Shown piece by piece: positions 1 to 58,469 of a stretch of 64,000 nt of DNA. The position numbers and the translations under genes were made by a program. Location of the stretch: positions 62,001-126,000 of the forward strand of contig NZ_LPWG01000010.1 of NCBI RefSeq assembly GCF_001723285.1, read 5' to 3'. The DNA comes from Methyloceanibacter methanicus (GTDB lineage: Bacteria > Pseudomonadota > Alphaproteobacteria > Rhizobiales > Methyloligellaceae). Every line of letters begins with the position of its first letter. The stretch's first letter is position 1. The notes under the pieces are model-generated. The model had not been told where the DNA came from, ran no database searches, and saw nothing but the letters and a program-made list of their open reading frames with translations.

Positions 1-411
1 GGCATAGCGCTGAAGCGCAACCCCATGAACATCATCTGGAAGGTGCTCGCGCCCATGGTGATCCTGGTGTCGCTCATGTGGGCCGTCTTCTGGATGGACA
101 TCAACGATCTGTCAGACCGGTTGAATGTTTCGTTCATCGGCATCCTCACGATTGTCGCGTACCAGTTCCTGATCGACGGGACCATGCCGCGGATCTCGTA
201 CTTCACGCTCACCGATACGGTCGTGCTGTACTCCTTCGTCGTCATGTGTCTGACGATCCTGGAGAGCCTTGTCGTGGTGTCCCTCTCCAGGGCCGATCGG
301 GATTCGCTTGCCCGCAAGGTCGATACCACCGCCCAGTGGCTGTTCCCGGTCACGTATTTCTCCGGGCTGATTCTTATTTTTGCGATCTTCTTCTTCTTCA
401 TCAGGGGTTGA
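1..411 (+). CDS. Pentameric ligand-gated ion channel (Cys-loop type), C-terminal part
   Basis: The frame is open from base 1, so this is the 3' end of a longer gene. The visible 136 residues are the channel domain of a prokaryotic Cys-loop receptor homologue (GLIC/ELIC class). Counting from the Met at base 25, four membrane segments are seen at about 5-27 (M1), 31-50 (M2, the pore), 63-86 (M3) and 105-127 (M4). The M2-M3 loop DGTMPRISYFTLTD has the conserved Pro of the family, and the M3-M4 loop is short as in bacterial members. The protein ends right after M4, as in GLIC. Members are inner-membrane pentamers gated by protons or small ligands; the extracellular ligand domain lies outside the window, so ligand and ion selectivity cannot be judged. 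Direct family motifs make the call fairly firm. Confidence 0.85.
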   Translation, partial: GIALKRNPMNIIWKVLAPMVILVSLMWAVFWMDINDLSDRLNVSFIGILTIVAYQFLIDGTMPRISYFTLTDTVVLYSFVVMCLTILESLVVVSLSRADRDSLARKVDTTAQWLFPVTYFSGLILIFAIFFFFIRG

Positions 412-484
412 GACCGGCTTGGTTCCCGATTTCGCCGCGTACGCGATGTCCACGAACGCGGCTGGTACCGATCTCTCTTTGTGT

Positions 485-628
485 GCGCTACCGCGCTTCG
501 CGCTGCTTGAGCGTGTGTTTGTTTGCGCTACCGCGCTTCGCGCTACTTGAGCGCATGTTTGTTTGCGCTACCGCCTAGCGGCTGCTTGAGCGCTTCTTTG
601 GATGCCCTACCGCTTCGCTGCTTGGGGG
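485..628 (+). repeat. 40-bp tandem hairpin repeats, block A (3' of the ion channel gene)
   Basis: Three copies start at 485, 525 and 565, exactly 40 bp apart, with a fourth degenerate copy at about 604. Each copy has constant outer arms (GCGCTACC on the left, a form of TGCTTGAGCGC on the right) that can pair as GCGCT/AGCGC, and a short variable inner palindrome: GCGCTTCGCGC in copies 1 and 2, CCGCCTAGCGG in copy 3, a CGCTTCGCTG variant in copy 4. Inner stems change on both arms together. Related elements in the opposite orientation lie 3' of ahcY (3131-3375). The block starts about 75 bp after the channel stop codon. Confidence 0.8.
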
Positions 629-663
629 CGCGACCGGACGATGGCGAGGGAGGAGACCGCAGA

Positions 664-743
664 CATCCTTCGAGGCGCGGCGCGTCATGCTGAGGCGCGA
701 GCGCAGCGAGCCTCGAAGCACGCGCCGCGCACCTCAGGATGAC
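664..743. repeat. Dispersed intergenic palindromic repeat, copy 1
   Basis: An approximately 80-bp inverted repeat: the left arm reads ATCCTTCGAGGC..CATGCTGAGG and the right arm contains CCTCGAAG..CACCTCAGGATGAC. A second, clearly related copy lies at 17195-17275 downstream of polA. Elements of this look are common intergenic repeats in alphaproteobacteria. No coding content. Confidence 0.7.
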
Positions 744-1532
744 GAGTCGGAGGCATTGCGGGCACGCCAAAGCGTCCCGCAGCCGTTTGGCACGAGGCTT
801 CGCCACACTCTCCCGACGTCTCAAAACTCAAGCCCACGAAGTGGGGACTTGCGGGGCGCTGGTCGGCCGCCGTCCGATTGTTTTGTGTGGGCAGCCTTCC
901 GGCGCCCCGCATGGCGTTTGGACGGTGCTTCGCAAGAGAGCGAAACACGCCTCGACGCCGCAGCGATGTTTTAGAGCCTCATGCCGCGCGCTTATCTCCG
1001 GTGGCACAGACATACGCATGGAGATCGTATGCCTCACCCGACGGCCCACGCGTTACGTCGCAGGCGGGCGGAGTAGAGACCCCCGAGGCCGGTCCGTTAG
1101 CCGCGACGCGGTGGTCCGGGCTTGATCATTCACCTCGGGCCCTTCGGTACCGCGCCACCTCGGGCGCTGCGTCCCCCGCCCCGAGAGCAGACGGTCTGCA
1201 GCTCGCGTCCTCACGAACGAGGGATGGCTACATCGTAGCTCAGGTTTGGCGGGTGGGGATAAGGTTGACGTCCAGCTTGGCTGGTCGGTTGGCCCGGCCA
1301 TGGGTAGCAAGAGCACCAAGCTATCCCGTCCGCATCGCCAAAAAATTGTGATTACACACAGCATGTTACGCAACGGCCCCAATTTCGTCACATGCCGGCC
1401 CATCGGCAGCCAGATTAGACCGTACGCTTCCTATCGTAGCGTCTGAGTCGAGATGTTGTGGTTCATGAGGGCATTAACCCCCAGAGGGGTTGTCGGATTA
1501 GCACTCGCCGCCTCATACTGCTACGAGCGATT
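744..1532. other. Gene-free stretch upstream of the tRNA
   Basis: I see no protein that I can support here. The open frames on both strands are short, Arg/Pro-rich and overlap each other, which is typical of chance frames in GC-rich DNA. A small hairpin (AACCCC/GGGGTT) sits near 1476-1491 and could belong to the leader of the tRNA transcript. Nothing resembles rRNA. Confidence 0.5.
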
Positions 1533-1557
1533 CGCCCCGCCTTTAAGGGGCGGGGCG
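1533..1557 (+). other. Strong GC hairpin immediately 5' of the tRNA
   Basis: CGCCCCGCC at 1533-1541 pairs perfectly with GGCGGGGCG at 1549-1557 around a 7-nt loop. It ends 5 nt before the first tRNA base. There is no T tract after it, so it is not a standard intrinsic terminator; it may be a 5' processing or leader structure of the tRNA precursor. Confidence 0.55.
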
Positions 1558-1562
1558 CATAT

Positions 1563-1680
1563 GGAGACGTGACTGAGTGGCTTAAGGTGCCCGGTTTAGG
1601 TCCGGGTGAGCCGTGTTCCCGTAAGCTGTGAGAGGTGGACCGGGGTAAAGGCTCCGGGGGTTCGAATCCCTCCGTCTCCG
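1563..1680 (+). tRNA. Atypical class II tRNA, anticodon UAG (Leu-type), 118 nt with an enlarged variable region
   Basis: A full cloverleaf can be drawn. The acceptor stem GGAGACG/CGTCTCC has 7 bp. The D arm is GACTGAGTGG..GGT with a 3-bp stem. The anticodon stem CCCGG/CCGGG closes the loop TTTAGGT, giving anticodon UAG (reads CUA, Leu). The T arm has loop TTCGAAT and a 5-bp stem. Two things are odd. The discriminator base is G and the D arm looks Ser-like, whereas bacterial tRNA-Leu normally has A73. The region between anticodon and T stems is 49 nt instead of the usual 13-20; its ends pair (GAGCC/GGCTC) and an inner TCCCG/CGGGG stem is possible. CCA is not encoded. An intrinsic terminator follows, so it looks like an expressed single-gene unit. 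Charging identity (Leu, Ser or none) is uncertain. Confidence 0.7.
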
Positions 1681-1693
1681 CACTCAAATCCTC

Positions 1694-1727
1694 GGGGGTG
1701 GTTCCTAGTGAGCCTCCCCCTTTTTTT
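1694..1727 (+). terminator. Intrinsic terminator of the tRNA transcript
   Basis: A stem beginning GGGGG and closing with CCTCCCCC (one internal mismatch) is followed directly by seven T residues at 1721-1727. It begins 13 nt after the tRNA 3' end. Confidence 0.85.
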
Positions 1728-1776
1728 ATCCAAACACCTGCATGTGGCGGAGTCTAGGCAAACTGATTCGCTAGTT

Positions 1777-1796
1777 AATGTACATTAATGTACATT
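1777..1796. promoter_or_regulatory. Double palindromic operator upstream of the RHH gene
   Basis: Two perfect, directly adjacent copies of the 10-bp palindrome AATGTACATT occupy 1777-1786 and 1787-1796, so the same DNA face is presented twice, one helical turn apart. The array lies 32 bp before the start codon of a ribbon-helix-helix protein. RHH repressors (Arc/CopG/ParD class) characteristically bind such tandem palindromes cooperatively and autoregulate; the assignment to this protein is inference. Confidence 0.65.
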
Positions 1797-1828
1797 GATA
1801 CGCAACGAGTAGTGCGTTGCGGGGTGGT

Positions 1829-2002
1829 ATGGCGCGTGAATTTAAGGGGTCGAGGCACTGCCTCGGCGACGACCTTGCCGCTGAACTAAAGACCCTATGC
1901 GAGGAACGGGGAATGACCGCGAGCAAGGTCATACGGATCGCTGTCAAAGAGTTCGTGGCACGGGAGAAAGCCAAGGACGCTAAGGCAAAGTCCAAATCCT
2001 GA
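1829..2002 (+). CDS. Small ribbon-helix-helix (CopG/Arc-type) DNA-binding protein
   Basis: The protein has 57 residues. The segment from about residue 14 to 47 (LAAELKTLCEERGMTASKVI) has the helix-turn-helix pattern of RHH proteins: a charged helix, a GM-T/S turn and a second helix leading to VKEFVAREKA. The C-terminus is a short Lys/Ala-rich tail. The ATG at 1829 is preferred over a TTG four codons upstream; GGGG lies just before it. No toxin gene follows, so an antitoxin role is not supported; a stand-alone regulator bound to the double palindrome upstream is the simplest reading. It sits alone between the long tRNA and an outer-membrane protein gene on the other strand. Confidence 0.6.
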   Translation: MAREFKGSRHCLGDDLAAELKTLCEERGMTASKVIRIAVKEFVAREKAKDAKAKSKS

Positions 2003-2185
2003 TACCACCCCGTTTCTCGGGGCTCTCAATCTTGCCCTCTTCCACTACAGTCGAAGGGCTTGCACAATCCGATAGGTGATGGACTGTCGAAGTCCCTCGT
2101 TGTCTTCGTCCAGCCAGTACGCGCGGAGCACACGCAATACAAGCGCTGGCGCTATCAGCGGTCCGTGTTCGAACTTTCCTTTCCT

Positions 2186-2926
2186 CTACCACCCGCCCCC
2201 GAACCGCAGATTGATCCCGGCACGGACGACATTGGCTGTGTCTTCGATGTCCACGTAGGCGGTGGGCAGGAAGTTGTATTGCGGGTCGAGGGTGATGCGG
2301 TCCGTGCCGAAGTCGTAGTGGGCGTATTCGACGAAGGCCGAGAGGTGCTGCGTGAGCGCGTATTCGCCGCCGCCGCCGATGGTCCAGCCTTCGCGCGTGT
2401 CCGATGCGCGGTAGGCGGTGCCGATCTGCGTGGTCGCGGCCGCGTAGGAAACCCGCTCCCAGGCCGCGCCCCCTTCCACATAGACAAGCAGGGTATCGAA
2501 GGCGTAGCCGATGCGGCCCGTGAGCGTGCCGAGCCCGTCCATCTCGCTGCGATAGGTGACGCCGGTCTCGCGAGCGGACGGATGGCTGCCGTTCGCGTCG
2601 GTCCAGCCGTAGTCGCCGCCGATGCCGAGCACCACGCGGTTCGCCAGCTGAACGTCGCAACCCGCCTGCACGCCGCCGATGACCCCGTCGACGTCATGGC
2701 CGCCGAGGGACACACCTTGGAACGCACCGCCCGGCGTGCGCGGGATCCATTTGCTGCTCGTGCCCCAGGCTCCGCCGAGATGACCGCCGGCGTAGCAGCC
2801 GGTCCAGTTCGCGGTCTCTCGCGTGGCGGTCTCGGGCGCGGCGGCGTGCTCCACGAGCATGCCGCCCGCGCGGGCATGTCCCGCGAGAGCGGTCAGGATC
2901 GCAACGGCAGTCAGGACTGTGCGCAT
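2186..2926 (-). CDS. Outer-membrane beta-barrel protein (Omp25/OmpA-like porin family)
   Basis: The protein has 246 residues. The Met at 2926 starts a clean signal peptide (MRTVLTAVAILTALAGHARA), so I prefer it to the upstream frame start. After TGCYAGGHLGGAWG, which is the usual first strand of Omp25-like proteins of Rhizobiales (W-G-CY-x-G), alternating glycine and aromatic strands follow and the chain ends in INLRFGGGW, an aromatic C-terminus for BAM recognition. Expected location is the outer membrane; function is structural or porin-like. Isolated gene with intergenic repeats upstream. Confidence 0.8.
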   Translation of the reverse strand: MRTVLTAVAILTALAGHARAGGMLVEHAAAPETATRETANWTGCYAGGHLGGAWGTSSKWIPRTPGGAFQGVSLGGHDVDGVIGGVQAGCDVQLANRVVLGIGGDYGWTDANGSHPSARETGVTYRSEMDGLGTLTGRIGYAFDTLLVYVEGGAAWERVSYAAATTQIGTAYRASDTREGWTIGGGGEYALTQHLSAFVEYAHYDFGTDRITLDPQYNFLPTAYVDIEDTANVVRAGINLRFGGGW

Positions 2927-3017
2927 GACATCGGCCCCCGGCGATGAGCCGTCAGTATATCCCAGCCGCGCGGCGCGCCAAACGTCGGCGCCCGTTCCAA
3001 TGGTCCGTGACACATCC

Positions 3018-3113
3018 CATCATTGTCATGCCCGGACTTGATCCGGGCATCCACGAAAGGCGGAACTTGCTGCAAATCGTGGACCCCCGGGTCAAGCCCG
3101 GGGGTGACGAGTC
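3018..3113. repeat. Intergenic inverted repeat (CCCGG-rich)
   Basis: The left arm TGTCATGCCCGGACTTGATC and the right arm (GGACCCCCGGGTCAAGCCCG, then GGGGTGACGA) are imperfect inverted copies, each also internally palindromic (CCCGG..CCGGG). This form (TCATGCCCGG..GGGTGACGA) is a frequent alphaproteobacterial intergenic repeat. It lies between the outer-membrane protein gene and hairpin block B. Confidence 0.65.
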
Positions 3114-3130
3114 AGAGTAAGGACCCGCTT

Positions 3131-3375
3131 CTCAAACAAGAGGCAACGAAGTTGCGCGCTCAAGTAGCCGCTAGGCGATAGCGCATCAAGAGCAACGACG
3201 TTGCGCGCTCAAGTAGGCCAACGGCCTCAAGCAGCGAAGCGGTAGGCCGAACAAGATGGCCGATAGCGCAAACAAGCGCTCAAGTAGGCCAACGGCCTCA
3301 AGCAGCGAAGCGGTAGGCCGAACAAGATGGCCGGTAGCGCAAACTAGCGCTCAAGCAGCCGCTGGGCGGTAGCGC
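3131..3375 (-). repeat. Modular hairpin repeats, block B (3' of ahcY)
   Basis: Read on the minus strand these are the same elements as block A (left arm GCGCTACC, right arm CTTGAGCGC). On the plus strand, constant arms GCGCTCAAG(T/C)AG and GGTAGCGCAAAC flank small inner stems with 3-nt loops: GCAAC-GAA-GTTGC, GCAAC-GAC-GTTGC, GGCC-AAC-GGCC and CCGC-TGG-GCGG. A 71-bp unit is duplicated in tandem at 3205-3275 and 3276-3346. The block begins about 4 bp after the ahcY stop codon, so it would be transcribed as its 3' UTR. Confidence 0.8.
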
Positions 3376-3378
3376 AAA

Positions 3379-4767
3379 CTAGTAGCGATAATGCTCCGGC
3401 TTGTAGGGGCCATCCACGCTCACGCCGATATAGGCGGCCTGTTCCTCGTTGAGCTTGGTGATCTGTGCGCCGAGCTTGGCCAGGTGCAGCTGGGCGACCT
3501 TCTCGTCGAGATGCTTCGGCAGCACATACACCTGGTTCTCGTACTTGCCGGCATATTGCCAAAGCTCGATCTGGGCCAGAACCTGGTTGGTGAAGGAGGC
3601 GCTCATGACGAAGCTCGGATGGCCCGTGGCGCAACCGAGATTCACGAGGCGCCCTTCGGCCAGAAGGATGATGCGCTTGCCGTCGGGGAACTCGACCTCG
3701 TCCACCTGCGGCTTCACGTTGTGCCAGACGAAGTTCTTGAGCGCGGCAACCTGAATCTCGCTATCGAAATGGCCGATATTGCAGACGATGGCCCGGTCGT
3801 GCATCTCCCGCATATGGTCGACGGTGATGACGTCCTTGTTGCCGGTGGTGGTGACGAAGATGTCACCGCGCGGCGCGGCGGCCTCCATGGTGGTCACCTC
3901 GTAGCCTTCCATCGCCGCCTGCAGCGCGCAGATCGGATCGATCTCGGTGATGGCCACGCGCGCGCCCTGGCTCTTCAGGCTCTCGGCGCAGCCCTTGCCC
4001 ACGTCGCCATAGCCGCAGACGACGGCGAACTTGCCGGCGAGCATCACGTCCGTGGCGCGCTTGATGCCGTCGGGCAGGCTCTCGCGGCAGCCATAGAGGT
4101 TGTCGAATTTCGACTTGGTGACGCTGTCGTTCACGTTGATCGCGGGGAAGGGGAGCTTGCCCTTCTTCTGCATCTCGTAGAGGCGGTGAACGCCGGTGGT
4201 GGTCTCTTCGGAGACGCCCTTCAGATTGTCCCGGACCTTGGAATAGAAGCCGGGATCGCGTGCGAGGCGCTTCTTGATGGTGGCGAAGAAGGCTTCCTCT
4301 TCCTCGTTGGACGGGTTGTCGAGAACCGACGGGTCGACTTCCGCCTGGGCGCCGAGAATGACCATCATGGTCGCGTCGCCCCCGTCGTCGAGGATCAGGT
4401 TGCAGGTCTCGCCGCCCGGCCATTCCAGGATGCGGTCCACATAGTCCCAATATTCCTCGAGCGTCTCGCCCTTGACGGCGAACACCGGCGTGCCCGTGGC
4501 GGCAATGGCCGCCGCGGCATGGTCCTGGGTGGAGAAGATGTTGCACGAGGCCCAGCGGACCTCGGCGCCCAGCGCCTGCAACGATTCGATCAGAACCGCC
4601 GTCTGGATGGTCATATGCAGGCAGCCGGCGATGCGCGCGCCCTTCAGCGGCTGCGCGGCGCCGTATTCCTCGCGCACGGCCATGAGTCCGGGCATCTCGG
4701 TCTCAGCGATGGCGATTTCCTTGCGGCCCCAATCGGCGAGCCCGATATCCTTGACGTAGTAGTTCAT
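3379..4767 (-). CDS. ahcY: Adenosylhomocysteinase (SAH hydrolase)
   Basis: Hydrolyses S-adenosylhomocysteine to adenosine and homocysteine, clearing the product inhibitor of methyltransferases. The 462 residues cover the whole family length. Seen: the N-terminal substrate region ending in [13 protein letters not shown], the Asp of ILDDGGDAT, the [14 protein letters not shown] loop with its catalytic Lys and Asp, the NAD-binding GYGDVGKG, and the C-terminal KPEHYRY tail, whose Lys and Tyr reach into the partner subunit's NAD site. It heads the block ahcY, ptsH, EIIA, hprK, chvG, chvI, all on the minus strand and typical for Rhizobiales, but has its own promoter region and operator 150 bp downstream of ptsH. 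The start is followed upstream by an AT-rich palindrome (separate entry). Confidence 0.98.
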
Positions 4768-8061: not shown

Positions 8062-8757
8062 TTATTCTTTGAAACGGTAGCCCACACCATAGAGTGTCTC
8101 GATCACATCGAAGCTTTGGTCGACGGCCTTGAATTTCTTCCGCAACCGCTTGATGTGGCTGTCGATCGTACGGTCGTCGACATAGACTTGGTCATCATAG
8201 GCCGCATCCATCAGTGCGTCCCGGCTTTTTACCACACCGGGCCGCTGGGCGAGGGCCTGCAGGATCAGGAACTCGGTCACGGTGAGCGTGACCGGAAGCC
8301 CATCCCAGACGCAGGTATGGCGCTCGGAGTCCATCTTCAGCTTGCCACGCTCCAGGACCTTCGACTTGTCCTCGACCGCCTGGGCCGTATCGCGCGGCTG
8401 CGCGCGCCGCAGCACGGCCTTGACGCGCTCGATCAGCAGCCGCTGCGGAAAAGGTTTGCGGATATAGTCGTCCGCGCCCATCTTGAGGCCGAACAACTCG
8501 TCGATTTCCTCGTCCTTGGAGGTGAGGAAGATCACGGGCATTTCCGTGCGCTGCCGCAGGCGCCGCAGGAGTTCCATGCCGTCCATGCGCGGCATCTTGA
8601 TGTCGAGAATGGCGAGGTCGGGCGGGCTGTCGAACAGGCCGTCCAGCGCACTTGCGCCGTCGTTGTAGGTTTGGGTCTTGTACCCCTCCGCCTCGAGCAC
8701 CATGCGCAAGGAGGTGAGGATGTTTCTGTCGTCGTCGACAAGAGCGATAGTTGGCAT
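8062..8757 (-). CDS. chvI: Response regulator ChvI, OmpR family
   Basis: Partner of ChvG. The 231 residues start at [13 protein letters not shown]; the upstream open frame is not family-like and runs across the divergent promoter. Receiver domain: acidic pair DDD, phospho-acceptor Asp in [17 protein letters not shown], Thr in FLTSKD and Lys in IRKPFPQ. From about residue 130 a winged-helix OmpR DNA-binding domain follows ([50 protein letters not shown]). The 141 bp to the divergent HugZ-like gene hold both promoters. Confidence 0.96.
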
Positions 8758-58126: not shown

Positions 58127-58211
58127 GCAGCCGCTAGGCTATGCACCCACTCTGCGACGCACCCAGTTGGCTACGCACCCAGTTGGCTACGCACCCAGTT
58201 GGCTACGCACC
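58127..58211 (-). repeat. 16-bp tandem repeats over and after the rpsT stop codon
   Basis: On the rpsT strand the unit GGTGCGTAGCCAACTG occurs three times exactly (58196-58211, 58180-58195, 58164-58179), followed by a diverged copy GGTGCGTCGCAGAGTG (58148-58163) and GGTGCATAGCC. The first copy contains the last rpsT codons and its TAG stop. The array runs into GCCTAGCGGCTGC (58127-58139), which is identical to part of hairpin block A (573-585) and shared in 11 bases with block B (3166-3176). Confidence 0.85.
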
Positions 58212-58469
58212 CATGGCGCCGACGCGCTTGGAAAGGCGCGAAACCTTCCGCGAGGCGGCGCGGCGGTGGAGGATGCCAAGCTGCGCCGTGCGGGCGACGA
58301 CCGGCTCGGCGGCGCGCAAGGCCGCCTGGGCCGCATCCTTGTCGCCGGTGGCGATGGCTTCTTCGACCTTGCGCAGATAGGTGCGCATATTGCTCCGCCG
58401 CGTCTTATTGTTTGCGGTACGGCGGGTAATCTGGCGAACGGCTTTCTTCGCCGACTTGGTATTGGCCAT
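58203..58469 (-). CDS. rpsT: 30S ribosomal protein S20
   Basis: 88 residues, full length. [20 protein letters not shown], then [40 protein letters not shown]. Binds 16S rRNA early in 30S assembly. A consensus-like promoter lies upstream (separate entry). The stop codon lies inside the first unit of a 16-bp tandem repeat, so the coding end has been caught up in the duplication but the protein remains normal. Confidence 0.98.

Follow-up and report, generated by a model that had tools for sequence, protein, structure and literature searches.

Covarying hairpin units with a fixed internal loop in Methyloceanibacter methanicus and other Alphaproteobacteria: a probable family of mobile elements

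Downstream of two genes in the 64,000-nucleotide stretch of Methyloceanibacter methanicus DNA analysed here (the window), short hairpin repeats are found whose stems differ from copy to copy, raising the question of whether selection maintains an RNA structure in the 3' untranslated region or whether the hairpins are elements that move. Both answers were offered in an initial annotation of this DNA. Many bacterial genomes contain small hairpin repeats, the mover of CGTC REPs and similar elements is not known, and covarying stems alone do not prove a functional RNA. Based on sequence comparisons within the genome, the genus and the class, we consider it probable (roughly 60%) that the repeats form a family of non-autonomous mobile hairpins of 36-41 nt, which insert into loops and are moved by some factor acting in trans.

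In the window the covariance model identifies eight units, of which block A (475-629, plus strand) and block B (3156-3385, minus strand) contain four each. Their E-values lie between 2.3e-13 and 1.2e-07, and up to E = 10 one more hit appears, at E = 2.3. Block A begins 64 nt beyond a gene whose product has a ligand-gated channel domain (PF02931); block B follows ahcY (PF05221), whose stop codon is overlapped by the leader. Two of the four model hits in block B are guests, each in the inner loop of another unit that serves as its host. The individual features are:

475..514, plus strand: block A unit 1, leader 475-484 and GCGC-TACC-GCGC-TTC-GCGC-TGCTTGA-GCGT (48.2 bits)
515..554, plus strand: block A unit 2, leader and GCGC-TACC-GCGC-TTC-GCGC-TACTTGA-GCGC (58.1 bits)
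555..593, plus strand: block A unit 3, leader and GCGC-TACC-GCC-TAGC-GGC-TGCTTGA-GCGC (54.1 bits)
594..629, plus strand: block A unit 4, diverged, leader and GCCC-TACC-GC-TTC-GC-TGCTTG-G-GGGC (36.7 bits)
3347..3385, minus strand: block B unit 1, leader over the ahcY stop and GCGC-TACC-GCC-CAGC-GGC-TGCTTGA-GCGC (49.8 bits)
3276..3346, minus strand: block B host unit with a second unit in its inner loop, a 71-nt direct repeat (nested layout read from the sequence)
3294..3329, minus strand: nested unit in 3276-3346, outer stem GGCC/GGCC (43.9 bits; nested scan)
3205..3275, minus strand: second 71-nt host-plus-guest repeat, 97% identical to 3276-3346
3223..3258, minus strand: nested unit in 3205-3275 (43.9 bits)
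3156..3194, minus strand: last unit of block B, leader and GCGC-TATC-GCC-TAGC-GGC-TACTTGA-GCGC (44.0 bits)
3192..3204, minus strand: extra small hairpin GCAAC-GTC-GTTGC, separate from the unit (found as a direct repeat)
3143..3155, minus strand: small hairpin GCAAC-TTC-GTTGC, downstream of the array

The hairpin repeats claimed by the initial annotation at blocks A and B are therefore borne out by eight units, at an abundance far above chance, and several of its details read differently. GCAAC-NNN-GTTGC had been taken for an inner stem of the repeat; in the relative G007 (L235) the hairpin GCAAC-TTC-GTTGC followed by TTTT stands alone directly after the ahcY stop, and its counterpart beyond the array in the window (3143-3155) is apparently the old ahcY terminator hairpin. 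GGCC-AAC-GGCC, read as one stem, joins in the nested reading the arms of two helices: on the sense strand, the nested unit contributes its 3' arm, the host follows with its 3' inner arm, and a 3-nt loop lies between them. The site near rpsT (58127-58139), proposed as a third member, has only the inner module GCCTAGCGGC-TGC in common with the units, lacks the CTTGA arm and gives no hit up to E = 10. Of the proposal that all sites lie beside genes in the same orientation, what stands is that blocks A and B are both 3' of a gene in sense, the rpsT site being no member. Just 3' of rpsT, at 58140-58215, there is a tandem repeat of roughly four copies of ~16 bp, unrelated to the units.

Aligned copies define the unit as a 10-nt T-rich leader followed by N3-C-TAYC-G-inner stem-C-TRCTTGA-G-N3', with a total size of 36-41 nt (typically ~40 nt). 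What stays fixed is an asymmetric internal loop (C-TAYC-G ... C-TRCTTGA-G); the inner stem and the three outermost base pairs differ from copy to copy and keep their pairing. The T-rich leader has its sharp boundary at -10 whether copies are first (86), tandem (51) or nested (12) (149 of the 150 aligned hits, one being unparsed), from which it follows that the leader belongs to the unit. The arrays result from head-to-tail tandem growth in 39-41 nt steps: neighbours at most 100 bp apart are on the same strand in 56 pairs and on opposite strands in 2, and 36 of the 56 are spaced by 39-41 nt. This differs from the dimers of GTAG REPs, which are mostly in opposite orientation. GTAG REPs also carry an unpaired GTAG at the end of the hairpin, whereas the antisense GYAG/GRTAG of the unit is enclosed by the outer stem, and the unit has no CGTC end of the kind that defines CGTC REPs (terminal CGTC tag, A/T-pair stem start and CCA-type tail). 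Miniature inverted-repeat elements (MITEs) have terminal inverted repeats of 15-30 bp and a length of 70-300 bp; the outer stem of the much shorter unit has 5 bp and is set back from the 5' end, because the leader precedes it. Unlike an intrinsic terminator, in which a stable GC-rich stem is followed by a T run, the unit has its T-rich tract 5' of the hairpin, and true terminators are located upstream of, around or downstream of units.

The outer arms had been described as constant. Among 344 distinct anchored copies they vary and covary, the outer stem being perfect in 312 (shuffled mean 149.8, maximum 170), with GCGC, GCCC, GTCC, GGCC, GTGC, CGGC and others represented; many of these loci were retrieved by an exact GCGC pattern, so that GCGC is inflated and the stem frequencies are biased. 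The inner stems, as first claimed, differ and keep pairing (perfect in 315 of the 344; shuffled mean 202, maximum 220). Inner GC, GGCC, GCGC and GCC stems are each found with outer GCGC, GCCC, GTCC and GGCC, which amounts to free assortment. The seed alignment of the covariance model was selected for paired outer stems; in a set from M. methanicus and related loci for which outer pairing was not required, a perfect 4-bp outer stem is present in 84 of 92 distinct anchored copies, and among the 33 copies that are not GCGC/GCGC there are 25 perfect outer stems (shuffled mean 7.7, maximum 15). The covariation score is 0.316 for the best 150 of 196 hits (58 stretches, five genomes; shuffled mean 0.124) and 0.368 for 41 hits in 19 stretches elsewhere in the class (shuffled mean 0.095), and in both sets 0 of 500 shuffles reach the observed value. 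Two of the five covariation measures are not clearly above shuffles in the five-genome set, namely the pairs changed on both sides (4 vs 3.5; reached by 241 of 500 shuffles) and the number of pair types (9 vs 9.1; 399 of 500); in the wider-class set these are reached by 2 and 473 of 500 shuffles, respectively. Pairing is conserved across the genome and its relatives.

The units extend well beyond the window. The M. methanicus genome (3.14 Mb in 14 contigs) contains the exact two-arm pattern 27 times and a reversed-pattern control 0 times, and the covariance model gives 65 hits in 31 clusters, the weakest of which (C7:40553, E = 0.037, within a called gene) is probably a false hit. Units are present in 17 of 17 genomes of the genus, in 9 of 13 other members of the family and in 4 of 31 genomes from other families of the order. 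A search of the class found them in at least 20 of 384 other genomes, from 12 families; 17 candidates were scored per genome, which makes this count a lower bound. Named genomes hold at least 120 matching stretches, and among the 80 matches listed a simple rule finds the full architecture in 23, of which 22 are alphaproteobacterial by title and one is an actinobacterial MAG; the alphaproteobacterial carriers among the matches listed include Brevundimonas, Erythrobacter, Qipengyuania, Parvularcula, Robiginitomaculum and Asticcacaulis. A stricter pattern occurs in 89 viral-contig stretches, including some prophages that reside in host genomes, and five M. methanicus clusters lie among prophage terminase, portal, protease and capsid genes (C13:52.2-67.1 kb; L218, L219). 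Part of this C13 prophage region is 100% identical to an IMG/VR contig. The statement of the initial annotation that no described family has this layout agrees with our searches: none of 4227 Rfam covariance models has a match overlapping 475-629 or 3131-3385 (window positions 400-3420, E <= 5), and phrase and sequence-string searches of the open-access literature, with subscription journals outside their scope, found no earlier description of the unit among the papers listed.

Of the two explanations first offered, an element that moves is the one favoured by orthologous presence and absence, by tandem and nested copies and by insertion in other hairpins. After ahcY, a unit is present in 1 of the 10 relatives examined (G010), several others having an ordinary terminator, and downstream of the channel gene units are absent in 2 of 2 relatives (330 nt compared). 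At a site in contig C3 (C3:100421), the M. methanicus unit lies within the loop of a perfect intrinsic-terminator stem, and the terminator is plain in G013 and G006. The relatives are ~73-90% identical near the insertion sites, and deletion is an alternative to gain. No target-site duplication is evident by eye at the ahcY, nested and CGTC-loop junctions, where the relatives are too diverged for base-exact junctions. Among the relatives compared at this site (L320-L323), the loop of the C3 terminator holds another hairpin of ~35 nt in G004, G005 and G014, and there is a different long loop in G003; with different hairpins in different species, it has the look of a hot spot for insertion.

Enclosure by other hairpins is not confined to that site. 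A strong inverted repeat encloses 16 of 92 clusters (permuted mean 2.6, maximum 7), 10 of the 16 coming from G018, a complete genome of the same family, and possibly not independent; several of these 10 may derive from a single composite, and two sites in L217 have identical flanks. The 16 hosts comprise 13 palindromes, which fit the text description of CGTC REPs (a match by description), 1 terminator and 2 inverted repeats in the spacer adjoining 23S rRNA (M. methanicus and G005). Units also nest in units: there are 15 distinct cases of nesting in the same sense and 0 antisense (the nested copies of M. methanicus C13 are seen again in L423, the two being the same DNA). In none of the 15 does the guest share the outer stem of its host, and inner arms of the host (2 bp or more) are recognisable by script in 11. 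An earlier set, drawn from the same 149 hits as the leader edge, shows a GCGC outer stem in 0 of 12 nested copies vs 83 of 137 others (Fisher 3e-5). In L268, a guest with a 9-nt leader separates the arm GCC of a common module from that module's intact loop-arm TAGC-GGC, and insertion there was therefore at the 5' edge of the loop. Many unit copies may be old or co-inherited.

How such a hairpin might move can be sketched from these patterns. A trans-acting factor would recognise the internal loop on a folded single strand, the fixed internal loop being its likely recognition site; leader and hairpin would enter exposed hairpin loops as one piece, often at the 5' edge, leaving no visible target-site duplication (the junctions being reconstructed). 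During movement or repair, one arm of the outer stem may serve as template for the other; complementary arms, the scarcity of intermediates and the free assortment of the arms with inner modules would then be accounted for. The bias to 3' ends in sense would reflect where hairpins are exposed and insertion is tolerated, with any consequence for the RNA of the host being secondary. A more specific version, which we put forward only tentatively and would not ourselves expect to hold, is that the internal-loop motif recognises apical loops (of terminators, REPs, rRNA inserts and the unit itself) in one polarity, the outer stem being rebuilt by arm copying. Insertion in a loop would keep the host hairpin working, and avoiding the stem sequence of the host would keep nested copies from mispairing. 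This version would need an undescribed enzyme or a re-used host repair activity, for which hairpin-opening nucleases are candidates, e.g. SbcCD, which cuts at the 5' side of the loop. The record of insertion is readable in nested copies, in host palindromes with a known empty form, in a terminator with and without a unit and in an in-frame insertion in a polymerase gene, and the carriers include possibly cultivable organisms (e.g. Methyloligella, Brevundimonas), so that a hunt for a factor binding the folded strand is feasible.

The strongest competitor of mobility is a structured RNA element of the 3' untranslated region (for protein binding, stability or termination), selected on the transcript and with duplicated copies retained where useful. 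The placement of the units speaks for it. Of 92 clusters (the best 150 of 196 hits, five genomes), 36 lie in sense after the upstream gene and 11 antisense in one-way gaps (36 of 47; two-sided binomial 0.00035), a count that omits the 5 clusters at stretch ends, without a neighbour on one side, and the 2 inside called genes; convergent gaps hold 26 clusters and divergent gaps 12. Gene positions are from a codon-usage caller, by which small genes may be missed. The preference for 3' ends in sense is real, but not a rule: placement is non-random, as the orientation check proposed for the family required, and the "fixed polarity" first claimed survives as a bias with antisense exceptions. A near-invariant internal loop between covarying stems and the constant sense of nested copies also fit an RNA element, and the T-rich leader beside a hairpin resembles the binding sites of RNA chaperones.

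The exceptions speak against a transcript-level role. In the genome G391, one unit is found in antisense orientation ~178 nt into the 23S rRNA gene, and further units lie ahead of 16S and in the interval from 5S to a tRNA. These antisense units of the rRNA operon are at L339 4104-4140, 6574-6609 and 9638-9674, and the first two occur, spaced alike, at four locations of the G391 genome. Two 39-nt units are antisense and in frame in an M. methanicus gene of DNA polymerase III alpha type, which we take to be dnaE2-like (L213:5747-9367, contig C11; units at 8331-8409), where they encode a 13-residue repeat; the homologue in G014 (L277) has one unit in the same region. The element is, as described above, not conserved after ahcY or the channel gene. 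Imperfect outer-stem cells are 9 G-U, 8 A-C and 24 other, of 1376, so that the G-U excess looked for as a sign of selection on sense-strand RNA is absent from the outer stem (these being small numbers). Compared with shuffles, the fold of block A is not better (z +0.57) and that of block B is only modestly better (z -1.83). Since G-U is no commoner than A-C and block A folds like its shuffles, selection on RNA is not demonstrated; the earlier suggestion of it is weak, and we regard this explanation as unlikely.

We give still less credence to a local replication error, in which template switching at quasi-palindromes and slippage would make, perfect and multiply hairpins in place, with no mobility. 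Concerted arm changes with few intermediates, the tandem 39-41-nt steps and the 71-nt duplication in block B are what such errors would produce; against this, one and the same internal loop and T-rich leader turn up in many families of the class at sites with no relation to each other, and an internal loop whose asymmetry such correction should erase is the constant part. Least probable of all, and by a reckoning that makes it distinctly improbable, is a REP of the GTAG type whose mobilising RAYT (Y1 tyrosine transposase) has been lost or is encoded elsewhere. In its favour, the antisense strand has GYAG immediately ahead of the inner hairpin and GRTAG behind it, reminiscent of the GTAG tag of REPs, and REPs, too, are enriched downstream of genes, with some located within palindromes (PMC3733652). 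It is opposed by an internal tag enclosed by a further stem, by arrays that are head-to-tail and not head-to-head, and by the distribution of the transposase. Y1_Tnp is found in 0 of 17 genus genomes (that of M. methanicus being 93% complete) and not in G018, vs 5 of 14 control genomes, and the loci around 13 Y1 matches in relatives contain no unit at E <= 0.1; mobilisation by a RAYT is thus unsupported, and a transposase encoded elsewhere, as the initial annotation suggested, is a possible mover. An RVT_1 reverse transcriptase was rejected as a required factor, being absent in 8 of 11 carriers (present in M. methanicus, G005 and G026). IS91-type Y2_Tnp matched 0 of 15 genomes, the control genomes likewise being without a match.

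As probable mobile hairpins, the units have several counterparts among known elements. The double-hairpin elements of fungal mtDNA (Allomyces), compared by description, are likewise short and apparently mobile. Nostoc small dispersed repeats (SDR) are very small hairpins with apparent recent insertion, some inside other repeats, as in the unit; by their description, they differ from it in sequence and phylum. Rickettsia palindromic elements (RPE) are palindromes that have entered alphaproteobacterial coding genes in frame, like the units in the DNA polymerase gene, but they lack the CTAYC/CTRCTTGAG core. Di Nocera et al. 2013 (PMC3733652) place at least two RPE types in CGTC families. The repetitive hairpin-forming elements of sponge mtDNA (PMC2800124) resemble the unit in being short, apparently mobile, intergenic or in an rRNA gene and sometimes tandem; their stems are conserved and their loops vary, whereas the unit has stems that vary in pairs and a fixed internal loop, and is bacterial, not mitochondrial.

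A further likeness is with the GTAG and CGTC REPs themselves. In Di Nocera et al. 2013 (PMC3733652), these are, like the unit, hairpins of 20-40 nt in high copy number, mostly downstream of coding regions and with alternative complementary residues in the stems; GTAG-23 of T. roseum and CGTC-1 of H. neapolitanus are examples of families located within other palindromes, and the CGTC families are apparently without a dedicated transposase. Compared with REPs as described there, the unit has no terminal unpaired tag, its conserved part is an internal loop, it includes a T-rich leader, and it forms head-to-tail arrays and nests in its own loops; the CGTC-like palindromes are its hosts, not its relatives. 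The family joins the REP-like mini-elements, among which its layout, its self-nesting and the lack of a RAYT set it apart.

A second dispersed repeat was observed near the arrays. It is non-coding, ~420 nt long and located in the window at about 846-1262 (plus strand), with strongly conserved copies at M. methanicus C12, C14 and C7 and at two places in G005, and further matches in the genus; several copies lie within about 600 bp of a unit array. No Rfam family matches it at gathering score. Its consensus fold has 95 pairs, 9 of them with paired changes, and an unfavourable covariation term, and the repeat is a candidate for a large structured RNA.
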